From a virus, in the IMG/VR virus record IMGVR_UViG_3300009001_000057, positions 1-30,323 of that record: a stretch of 30,323 nucleotides of DNA; one strand, written 5' to 3'. How positions within the stretch are numbered: position 1 is the stretch's first letter; each line of letters starts with the position of its first letter. The translations under genes were made by a program, and so were the position numbers. Shown here piece by piece: positions 327-29,400 of the stretch. A model generated the notes under the pieces. That model made no database searches. It was not told the origin of the DNA and saw only the letters and a program-made list of their open reading frames with translations.

Positions 327-349
327 GAAACCACCACCATAAGAGAGAC
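327..349 (+). promoter_or_regulatory. Candidate phage RNA polymerase promoter, copy 2
   Basis: This is the second copy of the 23-bp repeat, with A instead of T at 339. The likely +1 is the G at 343, which would give a 22-nt leader before the ATG at 365. The leader contains GAGAGG at 355-360, a Shine-Dalgarno-like sequence. Tandem promoters here would drive the DNA-metabolism operon. Confidence 0.6.
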
Positions 350-364
350 TGAAAGAGAGGCCCT

Positions 365-7794: not shown

Positions 7795-7812
7795 TGTACT
7801 GAGACTTTTCAG

Positions 7813-7836
7813 ATTCAACCACCTTAACAGGGAGAC
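7813..7836 (+). promoter_or_regulatory. Candidate phage late promoter before the structural module
   Basis: In the 65-nt gap 7795-7859, ACCACCTTAA (7818-7827) exactly repeats a 10-mer of promoter copy 1 (303-312). It is followed by AGGGAGAC (7829-7836), which matches the T7 initiation sequence even better than copies 1 and 2. The spacing between the two blocks is 2 bp longer than in those copies. It stands at the border between DNA-metabolism and head genes, where T7-like phages place a class III promoter. Confidence 0.55.
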
Positions 7837-7859
7837 GAAAGATCGAACCCTTACCTAAA

Positions 7860-8042
7860 ATGGATGATTGGCCCAGCGTTTCACCCGCTTTTGTGCGCTA
7901 TCTCCAACGCAAATACCCCGACACAACTCCAATGCGAGCGACATCGCTCCTCGAGTTGGGTCAAGCTCAGGGCCGTCGAGAGGTGGTCCAGTTCATAGAG
8001 AACCTACAGAAGGCCCAGAAACGTGGGTCGATTCTCGACTAA
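7860..8042 (+). CDS. Hypothetical small protein at start of structural module
   Basis: A 60-aa protein, first gene after the promoter-like sequence at 7813-7836. The WPSVSPAFVRYLQRKYPDTTP opening, followed by a helix ending VVQFIENLQKAQ, resembles small proteins encoded ahead of the portal in other T7-like phages, but I cannot name a function. The ribosome-binding site is weak (GAAAG, distant), so initiation may be inefficient. T7 gene 7 lies in a comparable place; no homology is claimed. Confidence 0.62.
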   Translation: MDDWPSVSPAFVRYLQRKYPDTTPMRATSLLELGQAQGRREVVQFIENLQKAQKRGSILD

Positions 8043-8068
8043 CCAGATACCAAACGCAGGATGTTCCC

Positions 8069-8260
8069 ATGTGCTTTATGTCAGCCCCGAAGGTGGCACC
8101 CCCACCTCCCGCTCAGGTCGCTCCTAAGCCGCCTCAAGCTCCTAGGCTTAACACTGAAGAGGCACCGGGACGCCTGCGAAACCGCAGCAAGGTCGGACGC
8201 AATTCTCTTAAGGTTGGCTTGCAGTCTCCCGGAGGCAACGGCTTGAAGGTCCCCATGTAA
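8069..8260 (+). CDS. T7 gp7.3-like small virion/tail-assembly protein
   Basis: A 63-aa basic, proline-rich protein. The C-terminal part, from RNRSKVGRNSLKVGL to PGGNGLKV, follows the pattern of the T7 gp7.3 carboxy terminus (basic stretch, then SL-V, then a glycine-rich end). T7 gp7.3 lies in the same position before the portal gene and is a small protein linked to tail assembly and adsorption. The start is ATG 8069 (AGG 8 nt upstream) or ATG 8078; the longer open frame from 7868 overlaps the preceding gene and is rejected. T7 gp7.3 is longer (about 99 aa), so the N-terminal part is reduced here. Homology rests on the short C-terminal motif. Confidence 0.62.
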   Translation: MCFMSAPKVAPPPPAQVAPKPPQAPRLNTEEAPGRLRNRSKVGRNSLKVGLQSPGGNGLKVPM

Positions 8261-9802
8261 ATGGTGGAAGAAACCCTTGAAGTCGTTACAGCCGCCTCCC
8301 GGTACAAGAAGCTTGCTGAGAAGCGCAGCCCTTACGAGCGCCGTGCTGAGGAAGTATCTGAGCTGACGATCCCGACGTTGTTTCCTAAGACAGGCGACAA
8401 CGCCTACACTACATTCGAGACAGCCTATCAAGGCATGGGCGCACGAGGTGTCAACAACCTCGCGTCCAAGCTGCTGCTCGCTTTGTTCCCCCCTAACGCT
8501 CCATTCTTCAGGCTGACGATTGAACCGTCGGTCAAGCAAGAACTGGATGAACAGGAAGGTCTCGCCGAAGAGATCGACCTAGCACTTGCCGAAGCAGAAA
8601 AGACAATGCAACGCGCCACCGAGGCGTCTACCCTACGCATTGCTATCTTTGAGACCCTTAAACATCTGCTAATTACAGGCAACATGCTGGTGTATTTGGA
8701 CCCCAACACGGGGAACCCCAGAGTGTTTTCACTCCGCCAGTACGTCGTAGCCCGAGGGGCCGACGACCTCCCATACGAAATCGTGGTATGCGAGAAGGTC
8801 TCAGCACGTACACTCCCAGAACAAGCAAGTCTTCTGCTTGATAATATCGAAGACAGTGATGAGGACATCGACCTCTACACGCACATTAAGCTGATCGACA
8901 GCCGCTGGCAGGTCCAGCAGGAAGTTAACGGCCAGGTTATTCCCGGCACTGATGGCTCCTACCCTAAGGATGCCAGTCCTTGGATCGCCCTCCGCGCAAC
9001 TCGCGTTGATGGTGAAGACTACGGACGGTCCTACCTTGAGGAATATGCAGGCGACCTGCGTTCCCTCGAAGGTTTATCCCAAAGTGTAGTTGAAGCTGCC
9101 GCTGCGGCTGCTGAGGTTAAGTTCCTCGTCAGCCCTAATGGTATCACACGCATCGACGACCTTCTCGAAACAGAGAACGGCGGGTTCGTTGTAGGTGAGG
9201 CTAATGACGTAGTGGCTTTGCAGCTTGAGAAGTTCGCTGATCTACGGATCGCTGACGCTGCAATCCGGCGCATTGAAGAACGCCTGAGCATGGCCTTCCT
9301 AATGAACACCTCGGTCCAGCGTGATGCAGAGCGTGTGACGGCTGAGGAAATCAGGTTCGTCGCTGGTGAGCTTGAAGACGCCCTAGGTGGTTTCTATTCC
9401 AACCTTGCGGTAGAACTCCAGCTCCCCATTGTTAAGCGCCTGATGCACCAGCACGACGTTAAGGTCAAGAACATCGAGCCTGTCATTGTCACAGGTCTTG
9501 AAGCACTGGGCCGTGGGCATGACCTTACCCGTCTTCGTGGGTTCCTGTCGGACATCACAGCTCTGGCAGAGGTACGTCCTGAAGTCCTCATGCGGCTGGA
9601 CGAGAACGCTATCTTGGACCAGCTAACCGTAGGACACGGCATCGAGCGAGGTGCATTCCTTCTTTCAGAGGAAGAGTTCCAACAGAAAATGATGCAGCAA
9701 CAGATGGCTGCGCTGGCTCAGCAGGCAGCTCCGGGTCTTATCGACAAGGCGGCTGACCAGATGGGCATGCAACAACAACAAGAGAGTGAGCAAAATGGCT
9801 AA
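8261..9802 (+). CDS. Portal protein (head-tail connector), T7 gp8-like
   Basis: A 513-aa protein (T7 gp8 is 536 aa) that should form the twelve-subunit ring through which DNA enters and leaves the head. The N-terminal half has the family signature: YKKLAEKRSPYERRAEEVSELTIP, the GARGVNNLASKLLLALFPPNAPFFRL segment, and LITGNMLVYL. The long helical region including RIEERLSMAFLMNTSVQRDAERVTAEEIR matches the wing/stem part. The C-terminus is Gln/Met-rich (FQQKMMQQQMAALAQQ), typical of the family. The start directly follows the gp7.3-like stop, and the end overlaps a 69-aa gene by 8 bases. Confidence 0.95.
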   Translation: MVEETLEVVTAASRYKKLAEKRSPYERRAEEVSELTIPTLFPKTGDNAYTTFETAYQGMGARGVNNLASKLLLALFPPNAPFFRLTIEPSVKQELDEQEGLAEEIDLALAEAEKTMQRATEASTLRIAIFETLKHLLITGNMLVYLDPNTGNPRVFSLRQYVVARGADDLPYEIVVCEKVSARTLPEQASLLLDNIEDSDEDIDLYTHIKLIDSRWQVQQEVNGQVIPGTDGSYPKDASPWIALRATRVDGEDYGRSYLEEYAGDLRSLEGLSQSVVEAAAAAAEVKFLVSPNGITRIDDLLETENGGFVVGEANDVVALQLEKFADLRIADAAIRRIEERLSMAFLMNTSVQRDAERVTAEEIRFVAGELEDALGGFYSNLAVELQLPIVKRLMHQHDVKVKNIEPVIVTGLEALGRGHDLTRLRGFLSDITALAEVRPEVLMRLDENAILDQLTVGHGIERGAFLLSEEEFQQKMMQQQMAALAQQAAPGLIDKAADQMGMQQQQESEQNG

Positions 9803-10815: not shown

Positions 10816-11205
10816 ATGTTTTCACTCATCGTAAAGGGCATCACCAGCGTCCTCAGCGGCTGGGTGAAAACCCGACAAGTCAAGGCTGAGGGTAAAGTTA
10901 AGGTCGCCGTAGCGCAGGCTGAGGCTCAGGCCAAGGTCGCCACCGCAGAGCGCGACTGGGACACCGAAGCTCTCCGTCAATCCCAATACTCATGGAAGGA
11001 TGAATACCTGACGATCATTCTGTCAGCTCCCTTTGTGGGATCATTCTTCCCGGGTATTCAGGATCACGTTATGAAGGGCTGGGAGTACGTAACCCAAGCT
11101 CCCGTTTGGTATCAGGTGGCGTTCCTCGGAACCGTAGCCGCATCGTTCGGATTGCGCTGGTGGTTCACCCGTACCAACATGGAGGTCATGTCTCGAGATG
11201 GTTAA
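10816..11205 (+). CDS. Holin-like membrane protein (GTA/3TM-holin type)
   Basis: A 129-aa protein with a short hydrophobic N-terminus (FSLIVKGITSVLSGWV), an Ala/Lys/Glu helix at about residues 22-50, and two convincing membrane segments at about 64-82 and 98-117. The motif SWKDEYLTIILSAPF, later PVWYQ and ASFGLRWW resemble the 3-TM holin family first named from gene transfer agents. A holin would let the gp3.5-like amidase, which has no signal peptide, reach the wall. The location between scaffold and capsid genes is unusual for a holin; a membrane-linked virion protein is the main alternative. It overlaps the next gene by 8 bases. Confidence 0.7.
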   Translation: MFSLIVKGITSVLSGWVKTRQVKAEGKVKVAVAQAEAQAKVATAERDWDTEALRQSQYSWKDEYLTIILSAPFVGSFFPGIQDHVMKGWEYVTQAPVWYQVAFLGTVAASFGLRWWFTRTNMEVMSRDG

Positions 11206-11482
11206 GTCAACCTACGTACTGATCGATGACGTGGCCACGGATCACACCGGTGCGCTTACTGAGATCGACAACTTCAACAGGGTCGAGTACGGCGTTGTTC
11301 AATGCAAGATCACAAGCACGGGGACCGTGACCCTACAAGGGCGGACGACCTCTAACATGCCGTGGCTCGATATCATTACCTTCACACAGGACGACGGGCG
11401 ACGGGTCACCGCCTTCCCTGAGATGCGAGCAGTTTCCTCAGGTGTATCAGGTGGTCCTATCAGGGTGGAAATGAGGTTCTAA
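11198..11482 (+). CDS. Hypothetical beta-rich protein, possible virion decoration
   Basis: A 94-aa protein of unknown function. Most of it alternates in a beta-strand pattern (YGVVQCKITSTGTVTLQGRTT, then WLDIITFTQDDGRRVTAF), consistent with a small beta sandwich, and it ends in the basic, strand-like IRVEMRF. It is coupled to the holin-like gene by an 8-base overlap (ATGGTTAA). Being between scaffold and capsid, it could be a capsid decoration or head-fibre base protein, but that is inference from fold impression and context only. Confidence 0.66.
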   Translation: MVKSTYVLIDDVATDHTGALTEIDNFNRVEYGVVQCKITSTGTVTLQGRTTSNMPWLDIITFTQDDGRRVTAFPEMRAVSSGVSGGPIRVEMRF

Positions 11483-11483
11483 T

Positions 11484-11801
11484 ATGCTTGGATGGATCAA
11501 ACGAAAGCTCCAGCCTTCCATCACAGCGAAGGAGCTGGATGAAGCGATGGCTACAGTAGCGCCTAAGCCGCCTGTAGAGGACCCTAAGACCACCGCTTGG
11601 GTTGGGCAACCCGTCACCATAGCCACAGGACAGCGTCGAACAGACGCCCATGTGCGCCGATGGAGAGGCCGTAAGCAACGCCTCAAGACCATCATTGCCC
11701 GTCACCGTGCGAAGGGGGAAGAGATTCCCGCACACCTGCGTCACGAGCTGATTGAATTGAATATGCAACTTGGAGACCCGTTAGATGGCGTGGCAGATTA
11801 A
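11484..11801 (+). CDS. Hypothetical basic protein
   Basis: A 105-aa protein of unknown function with GAGG upstream of the ATG at 11484. The N-terminal helix (LGWIKRKLQPSITAKELDEAM) is followed by a proline-rich stretch and a strongly basic helix (VRRWRGRKQRLKTIIARHRAKG) with a heptad-like continuation LRHELIELNMQLG. The basic part could bind nucleic acid or an acidic protein surface. The last 17 bases overlap the next gene. Confidence 0.64.
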   Translation: MLGWIKRKLQPSITAKELDEAMATVAPKPPVEDPKTTAWVGQPVTIATGQRRTDAHVRRWRGRKQRLKTIIARHRAKGEEIPAHLRHELIELNMQLGDPLDGVAD

Positions 11802-12201
11802 CGAAACATTCATTGAGGACCGCATCACCGGTGGTTCCCAAACCTCTCTCGAGGGAGCAGACAACGTCAAGATGGGTCTGTACACCTCAGCAACTAGCCC
11901 TAGCGGCAACAACCTGGTTACATCTCTTACAGAAGTGTCAGGCACCGGGTACACCGCAGGCGGTATTTCAGCAGGAACCTGCACGGTCTCTGAGGCCGCT
12001 GGTACGGTAACCTTTGATAGCCCAGCAACATTCCTATGGAGTGAGAACGCAGCAGGGTTTTCCAACGCTCGGTACGCTGTTCTGTACATTGTGGCTACCA
12101 ACCAGATCATTGCCTACGAGGACATGACGACTGACCAGAACAATACTGCTCACGACTTTGAGGTTGTTATTGACGCTGCTGGTATTTTTACCGCTGCATG
12201 A
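11785..12201 (+). CDS. Hypothetical phage structural protein (beta-rich)
   Basis: A 138-aa protein beginning WQINETFIEDRITGGSQTSL, with a central SGTGYTAGGIS run and many Thr/Ser/Ala strands. Proteins with this kind of start and a GTGYTAGG motif occur in structural regions of phages and prophages, but I cannot give a proven function. The start overlaps the previous gene by 17 bases and has GGAG about 10 nt upstream. It may form part of a head-surface complex with the 616-aa protein encoded two genes downstream. Confidence 0.7.
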   Translation: MAWQINETFIEDRITGGSQTSLEGADNVKMGLYTSATSPSGNNLVTSLTEVSGTGYTAGGISAGTCTVSEAAGTVTFDSPATFLWSENAAGFSNARYAVLYIVATNQIIAYEDMTTDQNNTAHDFEVVIDAAGIFTAA

Positions 12202-12219
12202 TAAGCTTGGGAGGGCTGT

Positions 12220-12675
12220 ATGCCTCATCAAGACGCTTTAGACAACGCAAGTAATCGTAACAAATCCTACGAGCGGTCCGTAGCTCGCGAAGCACGACGT
12301 CAGCAGGACCGCATCCTAGCGGACCCTAGCACGACGCCCCGCCAGAAGCGCGATGAGGCCCGTGCCAACCGCCGCAGGGCTTTGAAGTCCGCCTTAGGTA
12401 ACGAACCAAAGGTCATCCGCCGCCCGGACAGCGACCGACGCTTTGTCGTCATCAAGTCCGTAGTGGCTGACGATGGTCTGTGGCTTGAGGTAATGGCCTT
12501 GGACGCAGACAGTCGTCCCATCGAACGTAACAATGGCCAAGCGAGAGCCGTCGTTGATGTCGATGGCGTGAAGCATATCTTAAAGAACCCCATCCGCGTC
12601 GATGACCCGGCCATTGGGGAAAACCCCATTGACCAGTTGGTCGAGCTTATGGAGGATCTGAGGAGACACCGATGA
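12220..12675 (+). CDS. Hypothetical protein with basic coiled-coil N-terminus
   Basis: A 151-aa protein of unknown function. GGGAGGG sits just upstream of the ATG at 12220. The first half is a long basic helix rich in Arg/Ala/Gln (ARREARRQQDRI type composition, then QKRDEARANRRRALKSALG). The second half looks like a small beta domain (RRFVVIKSVVADDGLWLEVMAL, then RAVVDVDGVKHIL) with an acidic C-terminal helix. The stop overlaps the ATG of the 616-aa fibre-like gene (ATGA), so the two are probably made together; a chaperone or attachment role for that protein is possible but unproven. Confidence 0.66.
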   Translation: MPHQDALDNASNRNKSYERSVAREARRQQDRILADPSTTPRQKRDEARANRRRALKSALGNEPKVIRRPDSDRRFVVIKSVVADDGLWLEVMALDADSRPIERNNGQARAVVDVDGVKHILKNPIRVDDPAIGENPIDQLVELMEDLRRHR

Positions 12676-14522
12676 CAACTCACGTCCTCCGCATTGCAAG
12701 CACTGATGGTGTTATCGATAGCTATGACGCCACCTACGCCAACGCCCGTAGCGGCAGCGGCACCCTGTCCGTCAATACCTCCAATACGCAGGACTTCTTC
12801 GGGCAAGAGATCGTCAGCAGCAACTACTATTGCAAAGAGTACTTCGGCGAAGTGGATTGCTCCGGCCTCCCTACAGGTGAGACCGTTGACCTTGCTGAGT
12901 TCTACTGGCGCGTGAATACCGACAGCTCCGTTCAGGACTTCACCGTCGAGATCCGAGAGCATGACTGGGGCGGCGGCACTCTGACCACAGGCGACTTTGT
13001 GGCAGGCGCAGACCTAGGCTCAAAGACACTCTGGTCCAGCTTCAATACCAGTAACATTCTCGGCAGCAATTCGGTGATGGCCTTCTCCAGCGAGACCGCA
13101 TTGAAGACAGCGGTCGCCCTGAGAGGCAACCTTCGCTTCATCATGGCCTCCGACCGCCAGCGTACCAACAACGCTCCCGCTAACGATACTACAGACGAGC
13201 AGATATCGATCTGGACGGGCAACAACAGCTCGGCTAACGATCCTGCCCTAGGTGTCGAAACAAGCGATGCCAGCTACAGCGGCCCCACTCTGGATGAGAC
13301 AACCACGGGCCTTATTACCACAGGCACAACCGCCACAGTGAACCGCCCCGGTACTCAAGCGGAGTGTGAAGATAGCCTGATCGTCTTGTTCATCGTAGTT
13401 GACGGCGACCGCACGATCACCATGCCTAGTGGCTTCACGGCCATCCATGAGAACGTCCATAATAACGGCACAGCGCAGATGACGCAGACCGCCTGCTACA
13501 AGATTGGCGGCGCGAGCGAACCTTCTACCTACAGCTTCACCATCAATACAACAACGCGTGCCTGCATCACAGCCTCCCGCATCAGCGGACATGACGCAAC
13601 GACGCCTATCGAGGCCAGCGGCTCAGACAGTATCTCTTCTGGTGTAGCTTTCAGTTCACCCTTCGACATCACGACGACGCAGGGCAATTGTCTACATCTC
13701 GCCTTCCTTGGTTCTGATGATGGCCAAGACACTGGCTACATCCCCGGGATGACTGAGGTAGCCAGCTTTGTTTCTAATGCAGTAAGCTTTGGCGTCCATG
13801 GTGTCCTTTGCTCCACCGAAGTGATCGACAGTGGGACGCTATCGCTGATCACGGTTAGCGACCGAACGGAACAGCGGGCGCTGTCCAGCGTTGCTATTGC
13901 TCCCGGTCCAACGGTGCAGCAGCATACGGCAACCAAAGGCTCTATGAGCTTCACAGGGAAGACCAACAGCACCTACAGACGCCATGGGCAAGATGTCGCT
14001 GATGGCTCACTGAGCTTCTCAGGGCAGGCTAACAGTAACTACAAGTACCACCGACAAGACATCGCTGATGGTACTCTGAACCTTTCAGGACTGGCTACAA
14101 CAATAACCAAACTATCACAGTACGCTGTATCCCCGGGTAGTTCGGCGTTCACTGGCCAGTCCGCCAGTCTCTCTTACAAGTCAAAGTACGTATCCACTCC
14201 GGGTACTCTTACAGTGTCAGGCGGAGAGACATCCCTCCAGAAGTATCACGCGCAGAGCATTGCTACGGGTGGCCTTACGGTCTCCGGTACACTTGCTTCG
14301 CTCTCGCGTAAGAAGGCTATGAGTGTGCTTAAGGGCTTACTCACCTTCACAGGACAAGCTGTGACGCTCGATACGACGGACACAGTCCTTGTTACCTACA
14401 ATGTTGGCCCCGGTCATGTTACAGTGAACGGAAGGCCGACCCGGTATGAACCTCCACCGTTCATTACCGAACTCCATTTCCCGCTTACACTTCCTCTTAC
14501 TGAGGACATTGAGCGTGAATAA
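12672..14522 (+). CDS. Large beta-rich repeat protein, candidate head fibre or adhesin
   Basis: A 616-aa Ser/Thr/Gly-rich protein. Residues about 1-205 form one beta-rich domain (VDLAEFYWRVNTDSSVQDFTVEI). Residues about 206-415 form a second, recognisable by its DSLIVLFIVVDG, TMPSGFTAIHE, YKIGGASEPSTYSF and later TTPIEASG elements, a pattern shared by many phage and bacterial surface proteins. Residues 423 to about 590 are 22-residue repeats beginning G-[ST]-L-x-[FV]-[ST]-G. The tail (RPTRYEPPPFITELHFPLTLPL) differs. No signal peptide or protease motif is visible. It directly precedes the capsid gene, so a head-bound fibre is the favoured reading; a tail adhesin encoded out of place is the alternative. 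Confidence 0.78.
   Translation: MTTHVLRIASTDGVIDSYDATYANARSGSGTLSVNTSNTQDFFGQEIVSSNYYCKEYFGEVDCSGLPTGETVDLAEFYWRVNTDSSVQDFTVEIREHDWGGGTLTTGDFVAGADLGSKTLWSSFNTSNILGSNSVMAFSSETALKTAVALRGNLRFIMASDRQRTNNAPANDTTDEQISIWTGNNSSANDPALGVETSDASYSGPTLDETTTGLITTGTTATVNRPGTQAECEDSLIVLFIVVDGDRTITMPSGFTAIHENVHNNGTAQMTQTACYKIGGASEPSTYSFTINTTTRACITASRISGHDATTPIEASGSDSISSGVAFSSPFDITTTQGNCLHLAFLGSDDGQDTGYIPGMTEVASFVSNAVSFGVHGVLCSTEVIDSGTLSLITVSDRTEQRALSSVAIAPGPTVQQHTATKGSMSFTGKTNSTYRRHGQDVADGSLSFSGQANSNYKYHRQDIADGTLNLSGLATTITKLSQYAVSPGSSAFTGQSASLSYKSKYVSTPGTLTVSGGETSLQKYHAQSIATGGLTVSGTLASLSRKKAMSVLKGLLTFTGQAVTLDTTDTVLVTYNVGPGHVTVNGRPTRYEPPPFITELHFPLTLPLTEDIERE
13938..14426 (+). repeat. 22-codon tandem repeats in the fibre-like gene
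   Basis: Repeat units begin with a glycine codon at 13938, 14004, 14070, 14136, 14202, 14268 and 14334, an exact 66-bp period, then at 14412 after one 78-bp unit. The protein consensus is G-[ST]-L-x-[FV]-[ST]-G-x followed by a polar/aromatic stretch. The nucleotide sequences have diverged, but the length is held strictly, which suggests structural selection on the repeat. Confidence 0.88.
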
Positions 14523-14645
14523 CGCTACCCAAAGACGCTGAATAGCATCACTGGCCCGTTGCGACGGACAACCTTTGGAACGCATTAAGCGGTCTGCGGA
14601 AAGCACCCCAACTCAAACCCCAAGATGAAAAGGAAGGTAAAGCTT
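14523..14645. other. 123-nt gap upstream of the capsid gene
   Basis: No credible gene. It holds a small hairpin CCGT-TGCG-ACGG (14556-14567) and the capsid ribosome-binding site AAGGAAGG at 14630-14637. The position corresponds to the T7 phi10 promoter region. A TTAAG at 14585-14589 resembles part of the candidate promoters, but the flanks do not match, so no promoter is called. Confidence 0.5.
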
Positions 14646-15590
14646 ATGGCTTCTACTCCTACACGGATTGGTCAGGTTAACGCCACTGGCGACGATCAGG
14701 CCCTATTTCTGAAAGTCTTTGGTGGCGAAGTTCTGGCTGCATTCCAGACCCAGACTGTCACCCTTGACAAGCACATGGTGCGAAACATCCAGAGCGGCAA
14801 GTCTGCTCAGTTCCCGCGCCTCGGTAAGAACACCGCTTCCTACCACACTCCCGGTACGCAGTTGACCGGTAAGGCCATCAATAACGCTGAAGTCGTGATC
14901 CCGGTTGATGACATGCTCATCTCCGACGTAGCGATTGCTGATATTGATGAAGCAATGTCTCACTATGACGTACGCTCTCAGTACGCCTTTGAGTGTGCCG
15001 ATGCCCTTGCCCAGCAGTTCGATAAGACTGTGATGCAGGTTGGCCTTAACGCTGCTCGTACAGCCACCAACCAGGTTACTGGTCTGCCCGGCGGTACAAT
15101 CATCACGTCAGCCAACTCCAAGACCGTAGGTGCCGATCTGGCCACCGCGTTCTTCGATGCCGCACAGGCTCTGGATGAGAATGACGTACCGGAACAGGAC
15201 AAGCGTTATGGCTTCCTGCGCCCTGCTCAGTACTACTTGCTCGCTCGGACGACCGACGTGATCAACAAGGACTGGGATGGCCGTGGCTCCTACGCTGATG
15301 GCTCCGTTGTTCGTATTGCAGGCATTGAGCTTGTGAAGACCAACAACCTGCCGATCACGGATATCACGTCTCAGTTCCGTACTGACTACGATGTGAACGC
15401 CTCGACGACTGCTGCACTGATCATGCATGAGTCCGCCGTGGGCACCGTGAAGCTGATCGACCTTGCTGTCGAAAGCACCGGTCACCGTGTTGACTATCAG
15501 GATACCCTGCTGGTCGCAAAGCAGGCTCTTGGCCACGGCAAGGTCCGTGTCGAAGGTGCCGTAGAGGTACGTACAGGCGCACCAGTGTAA
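14646..15590 (+). CDS. Major capsid protein, T7 gp10A-like
   Basis: A 314-aa HK97-fold capsid protein (T7 gp10A is 345 aa). The match to T7 is clear: ALFLKVFGGEVLAAFQTQT, HMVRNIQSGKSAQFPRLG, DEAMSHYDVRSQYAFE and the late HESAVGTVKLIDLAVE. I chose the ATG at 14646 (MASTPTRIG) because AAGGAAGG lies 8 nt upstream and the T7 protein also starts MAS; the upstream in-frame ATG at 14625 would add MKRKVKL and lacks a ribosome-binding site. No slippery heptamer or open alternative frame follows the end, so a gp10B-like frameshift product is not expected. A strong terminator stands 25 nt after the stop. Confidence 0.97.
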   Translation: MASTPTRIGQVNATGDDQALFLKVFGGEVLAAFQTQTVTLDKHMVRNIQSGKSAQFPRLGKNTASYHTPGTQLTGKAINNAEVVIPVDDMLISDVAIADIDEAMSHYDVRSQYAFECADALAQQFDKTVMQVGLNAARTATNQVTGLPGGTIITSANSKTVGADLATAFFDAAQALDENDVPEQDKRYGFLRPAQYYLLARTTDVINKDWDGRGSYADGSVVRIAGIELVKTNNLPITDITSQFRTDYDVNASTTAALIMHESAVGTVKLIDLAVESTGHRVDYQDTLLVAKQALGHGKVRVEGAVEVRTGAPV

Positions 15591-15596
15591 GCTGAT

Positions 15597-15609
15597 GTGA
15601 CCTAGTCAC
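15597..15609. repeat. Short perfect palindrome between capsid stop and terminator
   Basis: GTGAC-CTA-GTCAC is a perfect 5-bp inverted repeat with a 3-nt centre, 6 nt after the capsid stop and 6 nt before the terminator stem. It could fold in RNA or be a protein-binding site; no function is shown. Confidence 0.6.
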
Positions 15610-15610
15610 C

Positions 15611-15665
15611 CATTTGAGGGGGGTCGTAATGGCTCCCCTCTTTTTTCGTTTATTACCCCCAAATG
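15611..15665 (+). promoter_or_regulatory. Possible competing hairpin over the terminator and gp11 leader
   Basis: CATTTG-A-GGGG (15611-15621) can pair with CCCCCAAATG (15656-15665): ten pairs with one bulged A. It uses the left arm of the terminator, so the two structures are mutually exclusive. The right arm abuts GAGAGG (15665-15670), the ribosome-binding site of the gp11-like gene. This suggests tuned readthrough or translation; it is unproven. Confidence 0.4.
15616..15646 (+). terminator. Intrinsic terminator after the capsid gene (Tphi-like)
   Basis: GAGGGG (15616-15621) pairs with CCCCTC (15635-15640), and a G-U plus a G-C pair can extend the stem inward, leaving a 9-nt loop. Six T residues follow at 15641-15646. 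T7 has its terminator for phage RNA polymerase in the same place after gene 10, where partial termination raises capsid output over tail genes. Confidence 0.9.
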
Positions 15666-15675
15666 AGAGGCTCCT

Positions 15676-16263
15676 ATGGCAGCACCTGAACGCTTGACCG
15701 AGCTAGATGTGGTCAACTCTTGTCTCGAGGAGATCCACGAGGCCCCAATCCAAACCCTCGTTGACCAGACCTCAGTCCTCGTGGCTGTCGCGCAACGGGT
15801 CTACAATGAAGTGACCCGCTCAGTCCTACTCAAAGGGTGGAACTTTAATACCGACAGAGAAGTAACCCTGTCCCCGGACGGCAGTAACAACATCCTTCAA
15901 GGCGTTGACTTCCTTAAGGCGGACCCCTGCGACGTATCGCTTCCCTATGTATGGCGAGGTGGTAAGCTCTGGGACTACGAAGAGAACACGGACGTCTTCA
16001 CCGATACCGTTGACTTCAACATCGTCCGGTCGCTTGACTTCGCTGATATCCCTCCCTACGCCCAAGAGTACATCAAGGCTCGCACAGTCCGCATATTCTA
16101 TGGCCGTTCAGTGGGCAAGGGAACCAACGACTACAAGGTCCTGACGTATGATGAGTCTGAGGCTTTGGCAGAAATGAGACGCGGCGACGTGCAGTCGAGC
16201 GACAAGACGCTCCTGCGGAACTCCCGAGGTGGAGCTAGCCGAGTAATGAACCGGAGAATTTAA
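15676..16263 (+). CDS. Tail tubular protein A (adaptor), T7 gp11-like
   Basis: A 195-aa protein (T7 gp11 is 196 aa) expected to form the ring joining the portal to the tail nozzle. Family features include LDVVNSCLEEIHEAPI at the start, RSVLLKGWNFNTD, and the ARTVRIFYGRSVGKGTND segment followed by a DEAEAL-type helix (here DESEALAEMRRG). GAGAGG lies 5 nt before the ATG at 15676. It is the first gene after the capsid terminator, so its expression depends on readthrough. The nozzle gene starts 1 base after the stop. Confidence 0.93.
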   Translation: MAAPERLTELDVVNSCLEEIHEAPIQTLVDQTSVLVAVAQRVYNEVTRSVLLKGWNFNTDREVTLSPDGSNNILQGVDFLKADPCDVSLPYVWRGGKLWDYEENTDVFTDTVDFNIVRSLDFADIPPYAQEYIKARTVRIFYGRSVGKGTNDYKVLTYDESEALAEMRRGDVQSSDKTLLRNSRGGASRVMNRRI

Positions 16264-16264
16264 G

Positions 16265-18637
16265 ATGACTATGGTCGATGGAGAGTTCCCCTCATTCGTG
16301 AGTGGGGTCAGCGAGCAGGCTGAAAACATCCGCTTGGCTTCGCAAGTAGGGACCCAAACCAACGCACTCTCTAGCTTGACCGAGGGCCTGACCAAACGCC
16401 CTAACACGGAGTACATTGCCAAGCTCACTGGTCTGACTGACGAAAGCGGCGCTATGCTCCACGTCATCAACCGTGACGCTAGCAACCAGCACATTGCCTT
16501 CGTGAGGTCTTCCGGTATCAAGGTGTTTGATCTGGATGGCTCTGAGCGGGTCGTGAATAACCCGAACGGGATTGCGTACCTCAGTACTGGAACCGCTGCC
16601 GACCTAAGGGCAGTGACCGTAGCTGACTACACGTTCATCCTTAATCGCACCGTGGTTCCTGCTATCAAGTCAGGCTCCAAGTCTCCGGCTCAGAAGGACA
16701 CCTCGCTGGTGTATGTGAAGCAGGGGAACTTCGGTAAGACGTACACCGTGACCATCTCCAGTAGCAACGTGAATGGCTCAGTGTCGCACACGACGCCTGC
16801 TTGGTCTGGTGACAACGGTGGCAACGAGTCCCAAGTTGATAGCGCATACATCGCTACGCAGCTCCGCTCTAGTCTGGCCAGTAACTTCCCGAACCTGACG
16901 TTCAACCTGATCGGCTCAGTGATCCACATTGAGGATACTAACGCTGTGGCTGGTGGTGATCTTTCGGTCAGCACAGAGGATGGCTTCGGTAATACGTCCA
17001 TGGTGGGCCTCAACGCCTCAGGAACGCAGAACTTCACGGACCTTCCACGTAAAGCACCTGACAACTACGTTATCCGCATCACAGGCGATCCTAGCAACGC
17101 CTTCGACGACTACTACGTAAAGTGGGTCAAGGAAGGGGAGTGGATCGAGACCGTAGCTCCTGACCTGGACATCGAGATTGATCCTGCGAGTATGCCTCAT
17201 GCGCTGATCCGCCAGCCAAACGGTGAGTTCAACTTCGAGCAACTCTCATGGGCACCTCGGGAAGCAGGTGACGACGACAGTGTGCCGTTCCCTTCATTCA
17301 TTGGGCGGACCTTAGGCGACATCTTCTTCTTCCGTAACCGGCTGGGTGTCACCTCGGATGAGAACGTGATTCTCTCAGCGGCCAGTGACTTCTTCAACTT
17401 CTTCCCAACGACGGCTACAAGCATTCTCGATGGGGACCCGATTGATGTACAGATCACAGCGACCAAGGTGTCTGTCCTAGAGCATGCCGTTCCGTTTAAC
17501 GAGACAGTAATGCTGGGGGCGGAGAACGCTCAGTTCACCATCAATACTCCTAACAACCTGACGCCTAGTACCATTGCCATCGACCGGGTAACGGACTACT
17601 CAATGTCCAAGAATGTCCGGCCAATCGGCTGCGGTACTAATGTGTATGGTGGCTTCGAGAGAGGCAGTAGCGCAGGGGTACGTGAGTTCCTGATCGGAGA
17701 AGACGCAGGGATCAACACGTCCGACGACGTGACAGCTCATTGCCCTACGTACATTCCGTCTGGCCTGAGCCACTTCACCTGTAACGGGGACGAGAACTTC
17801 ATTGCCGCCCTTACCAGCGGCGAGAGCAACGCTATCTACACCTACAAGTTCCACTATGAGCGTACCGAGAAGAGACAATCGGCGTGGTCCAAGTGGAAGA
17901 TGGCTGACGACGTTACGATCCTCGGGTGTGAGTTCCTCGGGAACGACCTGTACCTGATCCTGCAACGGGCTGATGGTATCTTCTTTGAGAAGGTAAGGCT
18001 CGAGGACGCCCCGGTCGATACCGGAAAAGGGTGGAAGACCCTACTGGACAGCCGCCTGCGAGAAACAAGCTGCTCTCTGGTGTACAATGGCGTCACCGAC
18101 AAGACCACTATCCAGCTCCCTTATGGCGCACCCTCGGACAATCTCCGGGTGGTAGACCTTGATGGGGCTACTATTCCCATTGAAAGCGTGAGTACACCCG
18201 GTGGCGGGTTCAGTACCATCACCGTCGATGGGGACAAAACATCGGACACCTTCTATGTAGGCCAGCCCTACGAGATGTCTGTCCAGCTCTCACGCCCTCA
18301 GCTCCGCTTGGGTGGCCAAGAGAACACCCGTGTCATCACAGACCACCGCCTGACCATCACAAAGATGCACTTGATGTACGCCCGGACAGGGCACTTCGAC
18401 ATCGAGGTAAGCAACGAGAGGGGTCGTCTGGACACTTACAAAATGAGGTCAGCAGTGACCGGCCTCACTGAAATCGGGGCACCTACCATAGAGGACGGCG
18501 AGTTCAACTTTGGTGTCCTAGGACGCAACACCGACGTGACAATCACGCTCAAGTCGGACAGTCACTTCCCAACAGCAATTCTGTCTGGTCAATGGGAAGG
18601 GCAATACAACAAGAGAGCAAGCAGACTCTCGACATAA
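16265..18637 (+). CDS. Tail tubular protein B (nozzle), T7 gp12-like
   Basis: A 790-aa protein (T7 gp12 is 794 aa) forming the tail nozzle. The N-terminus FPSFVSGVSEQAENIRLASQ is close to the family start, followed by the ALSSLTEGLTKRPNTEYIA region. Further landmarks are SWAPREAGDDDSVPFPSFIGRTLGDIFFFRNRLGVTSDENVILSA (at about residues 325-370), cut here into its key residues SFIGR, FFFRNRLG and SDENV, and the C-terminal QLSRPQLRL and GHFDIEVSNERGR. GGAG lies 8 nt before the ATG at 16265. After it, instead of the gp13 homologue, comes a ribonucleotide reductase. Confidence 0.95.
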   Translation: MTMVDGEFPSFVSGVSEQAENIRLASQVGTQTNALSSLTEGLTKRPNTEYIAKLTGLTDESGAMLHVINRDASNQHIAFVRSSGIKVFDLDGSERVVNNPNGIAYLSTGTAADLRAVTVADYTFILNRTVVPAIKSGSKSPAQKDTSLVYVKQGNFGKTYTVTISSSNVNGSVSHTTPAWSGDNGGNESQVDSAYIATQLRSSLASNFPNLTFNLIGSVIHIEDTNAVAGGDLSVSTEDGFGNTSMVGLNASGTQNFTDLPRKAPDNYVIRITGDPSNAFDDYYVKWVKEGEWIETVAPDLDIEIDPASMPHALIRQPNGEFNFEQLSWAPREAGDDDSVPFPSFIGRTLGDIFFFRNRLGVTSDENVILSAASDFFNFFPTTATSILDGDPIDVQITATKVSVLEHAVPFNETVMLGAENAQFTINTPNNLTPSTIAIDRVTDYSMSKNVRPIGCGTNVYGGFERGSSAGVREFLIGEDAGINTSDDVTAHCPTYIPSGLSHFTCNGDENFIAALTSGESNAIYTYKFHYERTEKRQSAWSKWKMADDVTILGCEFLGNDLYLILQRADGIFFEKVRLEDAPVDTGKGWKTLLDSRLRETSCSLVYNGVTDKTTIQLPYGAPSDNLRVVDLDGATIPIESVSTPGGGFSTITVDGDKTSDTFYVGQPYEMSVQLSRPQLRLGGQENTRVITDHRLTITKMHLMYARTGHFDIEVSNERGRLDTYKMRSAVTGLTEIGAPTIEDGEFNFGVLGRNTDVTITLKSDSHFPTAILSGQWEGQYNKRASRLST

Positions 18638-18650
18638 CAGGGGAACCAAC

Positions 18651-20330
18651 TTGACCTTCCGTAGTAATACCAACCCAATGTTTCGCTCCAAGTTCGCCGA
18701 GGACATCTTCAATCACAAGTATCGGCACGAGGGCTGCGAGACGTGGGCTGACCTAGCGCGTACCCTTGTGCACGACGTTATGGAAGGCTCAGACACTCCC
18801 AAGGATGTTCTTGATGAGATGATCAATATGATCGCTGATCTCAAGTTCATCCCCGGGGGTCGCTACTTGTACTATGCAGGACGTCCTAATAAGTTCTTCA
18901 ACAACTGCTACCTGCTGAGGGCTGAGGAAGATACCCGTGAAGACTGGGCGCAGATTGCCCATAACAGCACGCGCTGCCTTATGACAGGTGGTGGTATTGG
19001 TATCGATTACTCCAAGTACCGTCCTGCAGGTGCGGCTGTGAAGTCCACCGGTGGTCAGTCTTCAGGCCCACTACCGGCCATGCAGATGATCGACAACATT
19101 GGTCGCTCTGTCATGCAGGGTGGTTCCCGTCGCTCGGCTATTTATGCAAGCCTTAACTGGAAGCACCAAGACATCCCTGAGTTTCTCAAAGCTAAGGACT
19201 GGGACACTATGGCAGTTCCCGGGACCAAGCAGACGATGTGGGATGTCAAGCAAGCTGACTTCTCTTACCCAGCTCCGTTGGATCATACCAACATCAGCAT
19301 CAACTACGACACCGACTGGTTCACCCAGAGCCTGACCGATGGTCCGGGCGATGTGTTCATGGCCAATGTTGAGCAGGCATGCCGTACCGGTGAGCCGGGC
19401 TTCAGCTTCAACTTCTTTGACAAGGAGAACGAGACGCTTCGCAATGCCTGTACTGAAGTCACGTCTGAAGATGACAGTGACGTATGTAACCTTGGCTCCG
19501 TTAACATGGGCCGCATTGAGAGCGTGGAAGAGTTCCGTCGCGTTGTTGAGCTGGGTACGATCTTCCTGCTACAGGGGACCCGTAAAGCGGACCTCCCGTA
19601 TGAGAAGGTGTATCAAGTCCGTGAGAAGAACAGACGCCTAGGCTTGGGCCTTATGGGCATCCATGAGTGGCTCGTACAGCGTAACTACCGCTACGAAGTA
19701 ACACCTGAGCTACATAGCTGGCTCCAAGTGTACCGGGGGCAGTCTGACAAGACCAGCCGTGAGTACGCTGATCGCTGGGGCATTAGTGCACCAGTAGCTA
19801 ACCGTGCGATTGCTCCTACAGGCAGCATATCAATTCTCGCAGGAACAACCAGCGGCATCGAACCGATCTTTGCCGTGGCCTACAAGAGGCGATACCTGAA
19901 AGCAAGCAGGTGGCACGCACAGTACGTAGTGGACAGCGCAGCCCAGGAACTAATCGATTTGTATGGGGCCAACCCAGAGAAGATCGAGTCCTCTCTTAGC
20001 CTTGCTGAAGACTACAAGAGGCGCATGAAGTTCCAAGCGGACGTACAGCGTTACGTAGACATGGGCATCTCCAGCACAATCAACCTCCCTGCTTGGGGAA
20101 GCGATGCCAATAACCCTGACACCATCAAGGAGTTTGGCGAGGAGCTGGCCCGACGAGCACCCCAGTTGCGTGGTTTCACAGTGTACCCTGATGGTTCACG
20201 AGGAGGCCAGCCGCTAACGATGGTGCCTTATGAGGAAGCCGTGGATCGTCTCGGAGAAGAGTTCGAGGAAGGCGTAGAAGCGCACGACGTGTGTGACATC
20301 ACAGGCCGTGGCGGAACATGTGGAGCATAA
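18651..20330 (+). CDS. Ribonucleotide reductase, probably class II (B12-dependent)
   Basis: A 559-aa enzyme that should reduce ribonucleotides to deoxyribonucleotides for phage DNA synthesis. The catalytic centre is complete: C86 in NNCYLL, the N265-x-C267-x-E269 motif (NACTE), and C279 in VCNLGSVNM. RLGLGLMG (about 329-336) and the phosphate-binding PTGSIS (388-393) followed by TSGIEP are typical. C548 and C557 near the end can act as the redox shuttle pair. No small radical subunit gene is in the window, and the layout resembles marine-phage class II enzymes, hence B12-dependence is inferred. It is shorter than the 739-aa Lactobacillus enzyme. The start is TTG 18651 (AGGGGA about 7 nt upstream) or ATG 18678. 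It is inserted between gp12- and gp13-like genes. Confidence 0.93.
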   Translation: MTFRSNTNPMFRSKFAEDIFNHKYRHEGCETWADLARTLVHDVMEGSDTPKDVLDEMINMIADLKFIPGGRYLYYAGRPNKFFNNCYLLRAEEDTREDWAQIAHNSTRCLMTGGGIGIDYSKYRPAGAAVKSTGGQSSGPLPAMQMIDNIGRSVMQGGSRRSAIYASLNWKHQDIPEFLKAKDWDTMAVPGTKQTMWDVKQADFSYPAPLDHTNISINYDTDWFTQSLTDGPGDVFMANVEQACRTGEPGFSFNFFDKENETLRNACTEVTSEDDSDVCNLGSVNMGRIESVEEFRRVVELGTIFLLQGTRKADLPYEKVYQVREKNRRLGLGLMGIHEWLVQRNYRYEVTPELHSWLQVYRGQSDKTSREYADRWGISAPVANRAIAPTGSISILAGTTSGIEPIFAVAYKRRYLKASRWHAQYVVDSAAQELIDLYGANPEKIESSLSLAEDYKRRMKFQADVQRYVDMGISSTINLPAWGSDANNPDTIKEFGEELARRAPQLRGFTVYPDGSRGGQPLTMVPYEEAVDRLGEEFEEGVEAHDVCDITGRGGTCGA

Positions 20331-20333
20331 GAT

Positions 20334-20798
20334 ATGGGACGAGTAGTCTATCCTAACGCCCACCATGTTGAAGTGGTTGCACGTGAGATGCGTCAGCCTG
20401 ACAAGGACGAAGTGGCCTGCTTCGATCATACCCCCTATGAAGCTCTGATGAAGGGCTGGCTGGCCAGTACCATATGCAGGACCGTTGTTGATGACTATGG
20501 CGACCCGATTGCTATGTTTGGCGTCAGTAGTCCTGAAGAGGTGCCCCCGGGGGTAGGGGTACCTTGGCTACTCGGAACGCCTGCTCTTGAGGATATCAGC
20601 TTTCAGTTCCTCCGGGAGAGCAAATACTGGGTCCAGTACATGGGCCAGAAGTATGGCTACCTAGCGAACTACATCGATAGCCGAAACGAAGTCCACCTCA
20701 GGTACATCCGATGGCTGGGCTTCGAGGTTCTCGAGGACCGAGGTGTTCCTGTAGGCCCTGACAATATCATCTTTTACCCATTCAAAAGGACAAGCTAA
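20334..20798 (+). CDS. T7 gp13-like protein with GNAT-type fold
   Basis: A 154-aa protein resembling T7 gp13 (internal virion protein A, DUF2833), a small protein needed for proper virion formation that has an acetyltransferase-like fold. The pattern includes VAREMRQPDKDEV near the start, a hydrophobic strand block with PIAMFGVSSPEEVPPGVGVPWLLGT, and a final HLRYIRWLGFEVLEDRGVPVG that matches the closing helix-strand unit of GNAT proteins. Enzymatic activity is not shown by the sequence. It begins 3 nt after the reductase stop and its TAA overlaps the gp14-like start, so reductase and virion genes are read as one operon. Confidence 0.82.
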   Translation: MGRVVYPNAHHVEVVAREMRQPDKDEVACFDHTPYEALMKGWLASTICRTVVDDYGDPIAMFGVSSPEEVPPGVGVPWLLGTPALEDISFQFLRESKYWVQYMGQKYGYLANYIDSRNEVHLRYIRWLGFEVLEDRGVPVGPDNIIFYPFKRTS

Positions 20799-21307
20799 TG
20801 TGTGACCCGGTTACTCTACTGGCCGCTGGCCTAGTGATGTCTGTAGGCTCTAATGTCGCTGGCTTCGTTGGCCAAAACAAGACGGCTAAACGAAATGCCC
20901 AGAACGCGACGGAAGCCGCCGTACTAGACTATGAACAAATCGGCCTGCGTCAGATGGAAGAGGACGCCGCTGCCAGCGCACAGCTCGAACAGAGTAGGCT
21001 TGAGGCGCTTCAGGCTCGCTCCTCAGCGGAGGTAGCAGCAGGGGAGGCAGGGGTAGCCGGACAGTCGGTTAACCAGCTCCTAGGGGCTATCAGCGCCGCT
21101 CAGGGCCGTAATGCGAACGTCATTGAGAGTAACCTTAAAGCGCGTACATCACAGCTCAATGTCGAGCAACAAGCTGTCAGAACAACCGCTCAAGGACGGA
21201 TCAACGCCGTGCCTCGTGGCAGCCTTGCAGGCATGCTGTTTGATATCGGCGGTGAGTCAGTGGGCCACCTCACTCAGTTCGCCAAGACGCGAGGAAAGGA
21301 CTCCTAA
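20798..21307 (+). CDS. Internal virion protein B, T7 gp14-like
   Basis: A 169-aa protein (T7 gp14 is 196 aa). The start MCDPVTLLAAGLVMSVGSNVAGF, with hydrophobic residues 5-26, followed by a long Ala/Gln/Glu helix (residues about 30-95), is characteristic of this family. In T7, gp14 is ejected into the outer membrane and forms part of the trans-envelope DNA channel. The start overlaps the gp13-like stop (TAATG) and the stop overlaps the gp15-like start, giving a coupled core-protein cluster. Assignment rests on the N-terminal pattern and gene order. Confidence 0.85.
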   Translation: MCDPVTLLAAGLVMSVGSNVAGFVGQNKTAKRNAQNATEAAVLDYEQIGLRQMEEDAAASAQLEQSRLEALQARSSAEVAAGEAGVAGQSVNQLLGAISAAQGRNANVIESNLKARTSQLNVEQQAVRTTAQGRINAVPRGSLAGMLFDIGGESVGHLTQFAKTRGKDS

Positions 21308-22866
21308 TGCCCCCACGTCAGCAAGTAAACACGAACCTTGGCACCGTCCAGAGAACACCCGCAGCTCAACCAGTAGATGCCTTTGAGCGTCCCGCTGAGA
21401 GTTCTGCTATCCAGCTAGCCAAATCCCTCCGAGGCTTCCGGTCTTCTCTCGATCAATTCACCGGTGTCAAAAATGCACAGTGGCGAGCTGGGGAGATCGA
21501 TGAGGCAACCGCTCAGGCTGAGATGTTGTCCGAGTTCGAGAACTACCAAGCCGCAGTGGACGCAGGCTTCCTCAAGGGGACCGAGACGCCCATCTTCAAG
21601 CAAACCTTCAACGAGCGTAAAGGTCGTATTGCAGGTCAGCGGTATCAGGCGGATGTCATGGAGCGGTATCAGGATCAGGTTCTCCCCTCGATCACCGAAG
21701 ACACCGACATCAACGCCGTGGTGGCTCAGTTCCGCCATGAGTTCTTGGGCGACGAACCCCTTAACGATGCCTTTGTCGTTGGCTTTAGTCAGATCGCGTC
21801 TAGCGTGGAGTCAGGCGTTGTGTCTCGCTTCCGGGAAGATCGCCACAAGGCTCTTAAAGCTGAGGCCGAACAAGACATTTCCATTGAACTCCGGCAGAGC
21901 GTCCTAGCCGCTAGAGCAAACCTAGTTGACGGCCAGCGCGTCGCCGACGTAATCAACCTGACCGACATCGAGAGACGCCAAGGCGTTCTGACAGGTTCTG
22001 AACTCAATGACCTGATGACCGACACCGTAACAACACTTGCTGTTGAACTCCGTGACGAAACCATTCTTGATGTTCTTCTGAAGGATCGCGCTGACGGGAC
22101 TAAAGGTCCGGGGACAACGCAGCGGGGCCGGGCGCAGATGGAAAACGCTCGTAACCGTATCCAGAACCTGGAGATCGCTGAGTGGAACCTAAAGAACTCT
22201 GAGGCCGCTTATCAAAACAGACAGCAACAGCAAGCGACTGTACTAGCAGCCGCTGAACGCTTGGATGAGAACCCCTACGCCGACTTGAGGGACTTGCTAG
22301 TAGATAACCCCGAGAGCGCCTCCTTAGTTTCCTCCCTTCAGAACGCCATCGTAAACCAAGAGACTCGTCGCGATCAAGGACAGCTTGGACGTGCTTGGCT
22401 GGATGTGTACCGAGGTATCACTACAGACCCTGTGGAGATCATGAACCGCGTGGTTGCAGCAGGTGGTAATGCTGCTGACGTTAAGAACACCGTCGGCCTT
22501 CTTGAAAGCCGTCGTAAGGAAATCGCTAACGATCCGTATCAATCGTACCTGAATACATCGATCACCCGGTTGAGGGAACTTGTGTCGGGTGAAACCCCGA
22601 ACAGTGCTATGTCTGCTGCAATTGCTATGCAGAAATCAATCGCGTTAGGCGGTGCCCCGGACTTTGAAAAGACGGATACGCTGCATGCTGCAGAAGTTGA
22701 CCTCGTTAGGGCTTATCACGCCCAGATGCAGGCATGGCAGAATCCACAAGACGGCAGTCCGCCTCAGCAGGTCTACCCAGACATGGTCCATAAGTTCCTA
22801 TTGGAGCAAGTAGAGGCGATCAGTCAGATGTACCGGGTGACGCCCGAGACGAAAGCAAAGCAATAA
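21307..22866 (+). CDS. Internal virion protein C, T7 gp15-like
   Basis: A 519-aa, mostly helical protein in the place of T7 gp15 (747 aa), which spans the periplasm during DNA ejection. The N-terminus is polar and flexible (residues 1-30), then PAESSAIQLAKSLRGFRSSL begins a long alpha-helical body with many charged and Gln/Ala-rich stretches. No catalytic motif, signal peptide or membrane segment is visible. It is clearly shorter than T7 gp15, so part of the solenoid may be missing. It is coupled to the gp14-like gene by a TAATG overlap and followed after 17 nt by the gp16-like gene. Confidence 0.82.
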   Translation: MPPRQQVNTNLGTVQRTPAAQPVDAFERPAESSAIQLAKSLRGFRSSLDQFTGVKNAQWRAGEIDEATAQAEMLSEFENYQAAVDAGFLKGTETPIFKQTFNERKGRIAGQRYQADVMERYQDQVLPSITEDTDINAVVAQFRHEFLGDEPLNDAFVVGFSQIASSVESGVVSRFREDRHKALKAEAEQDISIELRQSVLAARANLVDGQRVADVINLTDIERRQGVLTGSELNDLMTDTVTTLAVELRDETILDVLLKDRADGTKGPGTTQRGRAQMENARNRIQNLEIAEWNLKNSEAAYQNRQQQQATVLAAAERLDENPYADLRDLLVDNPESASLVSSLQNAIVNQETRRDQGQLGRAWLDVYRGITTDPVEIMNRVVAAGGNAADVKNTVGLLESRRKEIANDPYQSYLNTSITRLRELVSGETPNSAMSAAIAMQKSIALGGAPDFEKTDTLHAAEVDLVRAYHAQMQAWQNPQDGSPPQQVYPDMVHKFLLEQVEAISQMYRVTPETKAKQ

Positions 22867-26418: not shown

Positions 26419-29400
26419 ATGGCTGCATTAGCTTCGGCTGAATACACCGGGGACGGTGTGACGGATACCTATGCCATTCCGTTCCCGTTCCTTGACGGTT
26501 CCCATGTTATTGTCACGGTGGACGACATCCTTGTTGCAACCAACTTCATCTCACCGGCCTCCATTCAAGTAGCGAGTGGAGCGCCTGAGGTGGATGCGGT
26601 GGTACAGGTGATCAGGAGTACGCCCCGGAACACCCGGATGGTGGACTATCAGAACGGCTCAACGCTGACTGAAAGCAACCTCGATACGGATAGCTTGCAG
26701 GCGTTCTACATCTTGCAAGAGATTGTGGACAGCGTTACTGGACAACCCGGCAGTGGCACAGTTCTTGGAGCAGGTCTCACAGAGGCTGAGGTCCAAGCCA
26801 TGGTGAACCAAGCGATCACTTCAAGCGTGGTCCTCCAGAACGTCCAGACGCTGGCCAATACCAACGCCACGGATATTGCTCAGGAAGTCCTGAACCGGAT
26901 CGATGCGGACGCTCTCCTTGACACCGACATCACCGACTTGGATACCAGACTTTCAACGGCTGAGGGTGTAGGCGGAGCAAATGCCAGTGCTATCTCCGGG
27001 CTAGACACTCGAGTAACAGCGGCTGAAGGTAGTATTACTACCAATTCCTCCCAGATCACCTCGCTTGAGGCTACAGTTAACGACGGGACGACCGGGGTTA
27101 ACGCTAATTCCACAGCAATCACGGCCCTAGACGCTCGCGTTACGACGGCTGAGGGTGACATAACGACGGCTGAGGGTGACATTACAACTAATGCGGCAGC
27201 AATTACAGCCCTAGATACACGTTTAACGACGGCTGAGGGCAATATTACCAGCAATGCCGCGGCCACTTCTCTCCTTGAGACCCGTGTTACCAACTCAAAT
27301 CGAAGCAATTTGTACAGTAATGCAGGCAATCAGACCGTCAATGGTCTACCCGCAGACGCCAACAAGGTGTTCGCAGGTGAGATCTTGCTGGCTGACCATG
27401 GGTTACTGGCAGGCGACAAGCTCTCCGCATCCGCTGAGGTCTGGTCTGACGCTGGTGCTGATGATCTTGCCATCGAGATTGTATGGATTGATGGTGCCGA
27501 CGCTGAGACTTACTCTCAGGGGGCTGCTGTCAATGGTACATCAGGCTCACCTGCGGTTGCATTCATTGACGCTGCTGCAATTCCTACGGGTACGGTTAAG
27601 GTGAAAACCCGCATCGTTAACCTCGACGGAACAGAGAACTATGTCGGAAGACGTGTTGCCCTGAACGTGGGTGAGATCCATATGCTGTTCGAGATCACCG
27701 CAGAAGCTCGTGACCTGACAGCGTTGACTACGACGGTTGGGACGAACAGCTCTAGTATCACCGTGTTGACCTCAACTACTGACGGTCTGGCCGCTCAGTA
27801 CACCGTGACGGTCGATAACAACGGCTACGTGAGTGGCTTCGGGTTGGCCTCAGACATCATTGATGGCAACCCAACGTCCGAGTTCACGATCCTTGCAGAC
27901 AAGTTCAAGGTCATCCACCCCGCTAATCAGGGCCAATATGCTGCCTTCATAGTGGACGGTGGTACGGTCTACATGGACGATGCGATGATCAAGGACGCAT
28001 CCATCACCAATGCCAAGATCGCTAACCTTGATGCCGGTAAGATCAACGCAGGTACGCTTGACGTTGGACGCCTCGGTGCCCAGACGATCACGGTTGACAA
28101 GATTGCAGCCGAGGAGACCTTCACTGAGAAGCTTTACCTTGGTAATTCAAACCTTATCCTTGACGGTATCAACAACAAGATCACCATCAAGAACGCCGGT
28201 GGTACGACCACGATGGCCGAGCTGGGTGAATTAGGACTGACAGTCAACGACGTCAACGGCGACCCGATCCTAGTGGCAGGCTCAGGTGTAGAGTGGGGTT
28301 CGATACTCAACCCGCCTCTCTCCGAGTTCACTGGTAACCTGGACCCTGCGACTGACTGGACGCCCGGCAGTACGGGGACTCAAGGCGACTGGACTGCTCT
28401 GGGTGGTGCTCGTAACAGCATCATCACTGACCTTGGTCCATTCGAGGAGACCTACCAGAAGCTCTGGAAGTTCGATGCGGATGGTGTTGAGACTGGTGGC
28501 TACACCAAGCAGATCACCTTGGACGGCTCAAAGTCCTACCGGTTCATTCAGTTCGTTAAGCGAGCTGCTAGTACCGATGGTAACTCAGCGTTGGACTGGG
28601 GCCTGACCTCGAATACCAGCCTCTTGGAGACAGACGGTGATACGCCTGCTGCTGCTCCTAGGTGGATCGATGGCTTCGATACCACGATGCTTGACGACAC
28701 ATGGTACATGCTTGTGGGCTACATCTTCGAGAGTGGTCATACGGATACAACCATCCGGGGTACCGTGATCGATGTGGCTACGGGAGAGGTGCTGACCTCA
28801 GGTTTCACTGAGCAGGACTTTAAGTTCAGTACAACCGGAGATATTACTGTCACCTACACGTTGACAACCTCTGGTGCTGCTAATGCTGCCGATGATATCA
28901 CCTTCGGTCCTCCCCTGATCCATGAGTTGAACGGCACAGAGCCTCACCTCAACACGCTACGTGGGTCTGGTTTCTTTATTGATGGCGACAACGTGGATAC
29001 CTACATTGGTTCCGCAGCTATCAAGGAAGCTCACATCGCTGATGCCTCCATCAAGAATGCCAAGATTGATTCTCTGGCGGTGTCCACGATTAAGATTCAG
29101 GACTTCGCTACAGCAATCAGTACCTACACATCCTTCACTGCCGATCAAACCCTGACGAAGACTAGCGGTCTCGATCAGGAGATCACTGGCTTTGATACCA
29201 CAGTAAGCACTACAGGTGCCACCAATGCTGACATCACGATCAAGGGTGCCATGCAGGGCTATGGGTACGTCAATACTGACACCCAGTGTAAGCTTAACAT
29301 GTGGATCGAAGTGGATGGTGTACAGGAGGGCGATACAATCGAAGGCTTCTGGGGCAAAGGACAGTTCGACGTTAAGAACGACCCTACGCCGCTGAACTTC

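Follow-up and report, generated by a model that had tools for sequence, protein, structure and literature searches.

We report a ribonucleotide reductase gene that interrupts the virion genes of a T7-like phage, and we consider it probable (at roughly 0.6) that this is a working class II enzyme, lying away from its usual site before the portal gene and transcribed and made late, together with the virion proteins. The window, the whole 30,323-base stretch of DNA analysed here, is a virus record that is classed as linear and is an incomplete fragment. Its genes run in the T7 order: ssb, endonuclease I, lysozyme, primase-helicase, DNA polymerase, exonuclease, portal, scaffold and capsid are followed by gp11, gp12, the reductase, gp13 to gp16 and a T7-type tail fibre. 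By this gene order the phage belongs with the T7-like phages (Autographiviridae), and a megablast search found no near-identical named phage. The fragment starts downstream of the expected single-subunit RNA polymerase gene, and the early region is outside the window.

The reductase gene (18651–20330, plus strand; 559 aa, TTG start) is identified by matches to Pfam Ribonuc_red_lgC (177.6 bits, cut-off 23.9), PHROG 84 (E-value 3e-65) and NCBIfam models, and by an AlphaFold2 model. Upstream of it lies a full-length homologue of gp12, the tail tube B or nozzle protein (16265–18637, plus strand; 790 aa, stop codon TAA; Pfam Phage_nozzle, 801 bits, and PHROG 457). Downstream lies a homologue of the internal virion protein gp13 (20334–20798, plus strand; PHROG 308, E-value 7e-34), with gp14 next in line. 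A first, sequence-only reading had placed the reductase between these two genes, with 13 nt before it and 3 nt after it: the spacers are exactly so (18638–18650 and 20331–20333), and the embedding is borne out by the family matches of all three genes and by the recurrence of both junctions in two further contigs, L004 and L085. A Shine-Dalgarno-like AGGGGA (18639–18644, plus strand), identical in L085, stands 6 nt 5' of the TTG codon, and a Shine-Dalgarno-like GGAG for gp13 (20322–20325, plus strand) falls within the final codons of the reductase.

As an enzyme the reductase is of an ordinary kind; what is unusual is its placement. The active-site motif N265-A-C267-T-E269 (19443–19457, plus strand) and the cysteines C86 (18906–18908, plus strand) and C279 (19485–19487, plus strand) are invariant across 14 aligned relatives. 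We take C267 to be the radical-bearing cysteine, with the asparagine N265 and the glutamate E269, and C86 and C279 to be the redox cysteines; the catalytic residues of a class II reductase are thus all in place. In the alignment, the C-terminal cysteines C548 and C557 (20292–20321, plus strand) are a candidate pair for re-reduction by thioredoxin or glutaredoxin. At the position of the class I two-tyrosine motif the window reductase reads VYPDGS and Thermotoga NrdJ reads VYRDGS, while the class I enzymes of HTVC031P and P-SSP7, used as controls, have LYYC and LYYS there, respectively; unlike these two, the window reductase has no Tyr-Tyr pair near its C-terminus. A PF00268 search for an NrdB beta subunit gave no match within the incomplete fragment, and within that fragment the reductase has the single-gene character of class II, with neither beta subunit nor Tyr-Tyr pair. 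On the motif check and the PF00268 search of this fragment we reject a class I enzyme with a hidden beta subunit.

The AlphaFold2 model (pLDDT 84.8) finds its best PDB matches in the class II NrdJ of Thermotoga, in the B12-bound structures 3o0n and 3o0o. Among the curated NCBIfam models NrdJ_Z (TIGR02504) scores best, at 224 bits against a cut-off of 399.95, followed by RTPR (TIGR02505) with 97 bits against 340; since neither cut-off is reached, we place the enzyme in a divergent phage family and not in the NrdJ_Z equivalog. Judged from sequence and model, we regard the reductase as class II and B12-dependent, a member of a divergent phage-borne family, and it would presumably follow class II chemistry in vivo. 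It would provide phage DNA synthesis with deoxyribonucleotides by reducing ribonucleotides in an adenosylcobalamin-dependent reaction, with both B12 and the thiol reductant supplied by the host.

The closest named relatives are the class II reductases (559–561 aa) of Roseobacter phages CRP-3 and CRP-212, which are ~70% identical over the full length and have the same active-site and C-terminal motifs; these phages differ from ours in size (53–55 kb) and genome plan, and carry the gene among replication genes next to MazG. Both the genome plan and the reductase family of the window are found in L006, L015, L020, L032, L177 and a Rhodoblastus contig, L245. In these, however, gp12 and gp13 touch or overlap and the reductase lies ahead of portal, in most of them in the order exonuclease, DUF3310, MazG, reductase, two small genes, portal; in L006, L015, L020 and others the two small genes are one of ~68 aa and a proline-rich one. 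Reductases of other types occupy the same pre-portal place in CRP-125, CRP-227, HTVC031P and P-SSP7, and among the matches listed at least 59 T7-like loci have a reductase 5' of portal. The sequence-only reading had stated that the reductases of T7-like marine cyanophages lie with DNA-metabolism genes. As to position this holds, the gene normally closing the DNA-metabolism block directly ahead of the portal block, both in these loci and in the T7-like Prochlorococcus phage P-SSP7, with its order exonuclease-nrdA-nrdB-portal; as to enzyme type the comparison fails, for P-SSP7 has a class I reductase and a beta subunit to go with it (PMC6370689), and the reductase of the window is class II.

There is no reductase between exonuclease and portal in the window. 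The flanks of the usual site are kept: on the left the DUF3310 gene (7313–7564, plus strand; Pfam PF11753, E-value 5e-5 to the L006 gene) and on the right the small proline-rich gene adjoining portal (8069–8260, plus strand; E-value 6e-5 to the L006 gene). Between them (7565–8068, plus strand) both reductase and MazG are absent, and the interval holds a 77-aa ORF, a promoter-like motif and a 60-aa ORF.

The gene may have moved from this site or may have come from elsewhere. We rate at somewhat below even the chance that it arrived independently, through recombination with a different phage, directly into the gp12/gp13 junction of a genome whose usual site was already empty, a course of events compatible with late expression. 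The reductase family does cross phage types: the T7-like L006 has a reductase 81% identical to its counterpart in CRP-3, whose annotated gene layout is different, and 70% identical to the window reductase, which sits on its own long branch in the reductase tree. Against separate acquisition, a clade uniting the window reductase with those at the usual site of T7-like phages is not rejected (AU p 0.49 and 0.38), and a plot of reductase against portal identity puts the window on one line with the other T7-like carriers, a comparison of little power to separate a move from an acquisition because the sampled family members are 65–72% identical to the window reductase whatever the phage type. The reductase agrees with the phage in GC, GC3 and codon usage, which rules out a foreign composition; composition gives no date for the arrival. 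A host origin is rejected: in cellular genome collections 23 contigs among 84,980 genomes matched the reductase, and many of these adjoin phage replication genes.

The placement between gp12 and gp13 is rare. Our sample of loci comprises the best 80 of up to 600 matches per scan, with some loci being overlapping pieces of one contig; of the 180 listed that have both genes (159 distinct gp12), 174 have a gp12–gp13 gap of no more than 60 nt, and in several relatives the gp12 stop and the gp13 start overlap as TAATG. The reductase is found at this junction only in the lineage of the window, with L004 and L085, among the 180 loci listed, so the possibility raised at the outset, that most relatives carry it there, is not what gene order reveals. 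Other genes do occur at the junction: L112 has a minus-strand ORF of 150 aa (2804–3256), L351 has a similar gap, and L183 has an ORF of 62 aa (9200–9388). Our searches of the literature (open-access text) brought up no reductase within the virion operon of a T7-like phage.

The window is not alone in carrying a reductase outside the replication block, because the T7-like Roseobacter phages CRP-118, CRP-403 and CRP-804 also have one in the late half of the genome; both site and enzyme type differ, theirs being an RTPR-type reductase of ~640 aa that is flanked by DNA maturase A and B. The small gene upstream of the reductase is annotated as MazG in CRP-118 and CRP-403. The product of CRP-804 gp45 (OR420734.1, L089, 34371–36287), annotated as hypothetical, is the RTPR-type reductase at the maturase site of that phage, and its CRP-118 relative is annotated as two pieces.

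When would the reductase be made? In T7-like phages gene position normally predicts expression time. Two strong tandem copies of a motif resembling a promoter for a phage RNA polymerase (at 300 and 330; 300–351, plus strand) precede the DNA-metabolism block; the tandem 30-nt repeat at 296–355, AAACCACCACCWTAAGAGAGAC, is a likely pair of phage promoters. A weaker copy, conserved in L084, stands before the portal block (7815–7836, plus strand). With a model built from the two strong copies alone, 24 of 100 simulated windows contained a site scoring at least as high, which is not significant genome-wide, and because of this statistical weakness the copy rests on its position. That position matches the place of repeated promoter-like motifs in other phages: CRP-125 has five copies of TTAGGTTGCACCATAG, one of them 3' of the reductase and 5' of portal, and CRP-227 and L177 have comparable promoter-like motifs between reductase and portal. 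The identity of the window motif is a guess, since the polymerase gene and the early region are outside the fragment. Scans with a T7-type consensus promoter and for 20-mer repeats returned mostly fibre-gene repeats or noise.

An intrinsic terminator with an 11-pair stem followed by TTTTTT (15616–15640, plus strand) lies after the capsid gene, 3.0 kb upstream of the reductase. This is the place of the strong terminator of LUZ100 and T7, the former seen after the capsid gene in the LUZ100 transcript map (PMC10134795). We assign the reductase to the late region on account of the promoter-like motif ahead of the portal genes and the terminator behind capsid. No sigma-70 promoter-like site is found on the plus strand at 14400–21400, and the candidate phage motif has no copy near gp12 or the reductase; an extra promoter inside gp12, which the sequence-only reading had named as a finding that would overturn late expression, is not recognisable. 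Promoters may nonetheless be missed in the window, because the stretch 5' of the capsid gene, which holds a promoter in T7 and LUZ100, yielded no promoter-like motif.

With its own ribosome-binding site and no recognisable promoter, the reductase is most likely translated from a polycistronic late message, which would be produced by read-through of the presumably leaky terminator after the capsid gene. On the evidence of gene order and signals, then, the reductase is likely expressed late with the virion genes, and its synthesis would coincide with that of the tail and core proteins, at a time when replication and packaging are still ongoing. The reductase genes of P-SSP7 are expressed in the replication phase (PMC6370689).

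It is also conceivable, if rather doubtful, that the position between gp12 and gp13 is without regulatory meaning: the junction would simply tolerate insertions, and the reductase would be made early enough by read-through, on transcripts begun at middle promoters or at an unrecognised promoter within or upstream of gp12. Transcription that starts at the middle promoters of T7-like phages can continue into late genes, and as this blurs timing, the reductase may be made early enough anyway. The other inserts at the junction, in L112 (with the similar gap of L351) and L183, fit a tolerant site, as do hliP and psbA of P-SSP7, metabolic genes lodged in a T7-like structural region between gp9 and gp10; moreover, firm identification of the phage promoter requires the polymerase gene, which is outside this fragment. 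Set against these are the missing sigma-70-like site and phage motif around gp12 and the terminator 3 kb upstream of the reductase. A further difference is that CRP-804 and CRP-118 have a promoter-like motif directly in front of their late-region reductase cassette, while the window has none.

Late expression of a working class II reductase, which remains our preferred reading, leaves room for a bolder proposal that we hold only tentatively and think improbable: that the phage shifted a conserved enzyme of DNA-precursor synthesis out of the middle transcription unit into the late one and so changed its timing, boosting dNTP supply during packaging-phase replication. If so, CRP-118, CRP-403 and CRP-804, with their late-region reductases, would offer a parallel that involves a different enzyme. 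A reductase in the virion block of two phage groups, with two enzyme types and at different sites, offers a test of late dNTP limitation against loose positional constraint. Such cases also call for caution, as family membership alone is a poor guide to the timing or function of metabolic genes.

The locus itself is sound. Contig L004 (IMG 3300009000_000725) matches the window at 99.9% of DNA positions over 5,844 bp spanning both junctions, and L085 (IMG 3300006916_000766) has both junctions at 98% identity. Between the window and L085 the reductase differs by 30 synonymous and 5 nonsynonymous changes (dN/dS 0.045), with similar behaviour in gp13 and the gp12 tail, and this purifying selection argues that the gene is functional. 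The window being a metagenomic fragment classed as linear, one might suspect an assembly chimera or a broken reductase gene, a suspicion that we can dismiss almost entirely, because independently assembled L004 and L085 repeat both junctions, which rules out the chimera and with it an artefactual placement, and the reductase frame is open with all catalytic residues present and the low dN/dS given above.

Three further features of the window deserve mention. The interval between scaffold and capsid (10816–14522, ~3.7 kb) holds six extra ORFs at the place where P-SSP7 carries hliP and psbA; one of them (12672–14522, 616 aa) is without a family match. In the comparison with L085, gp15 (21307–22866) shows 34 nonsynonymous and 8 synonymous changes (dN/dS ~1.3), unlike its neighbours. 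Finally, the tail fibre gene has short repeats at 27136–27230, and L085 carries ~230 extra bases there (9118–9352; window position 27158).
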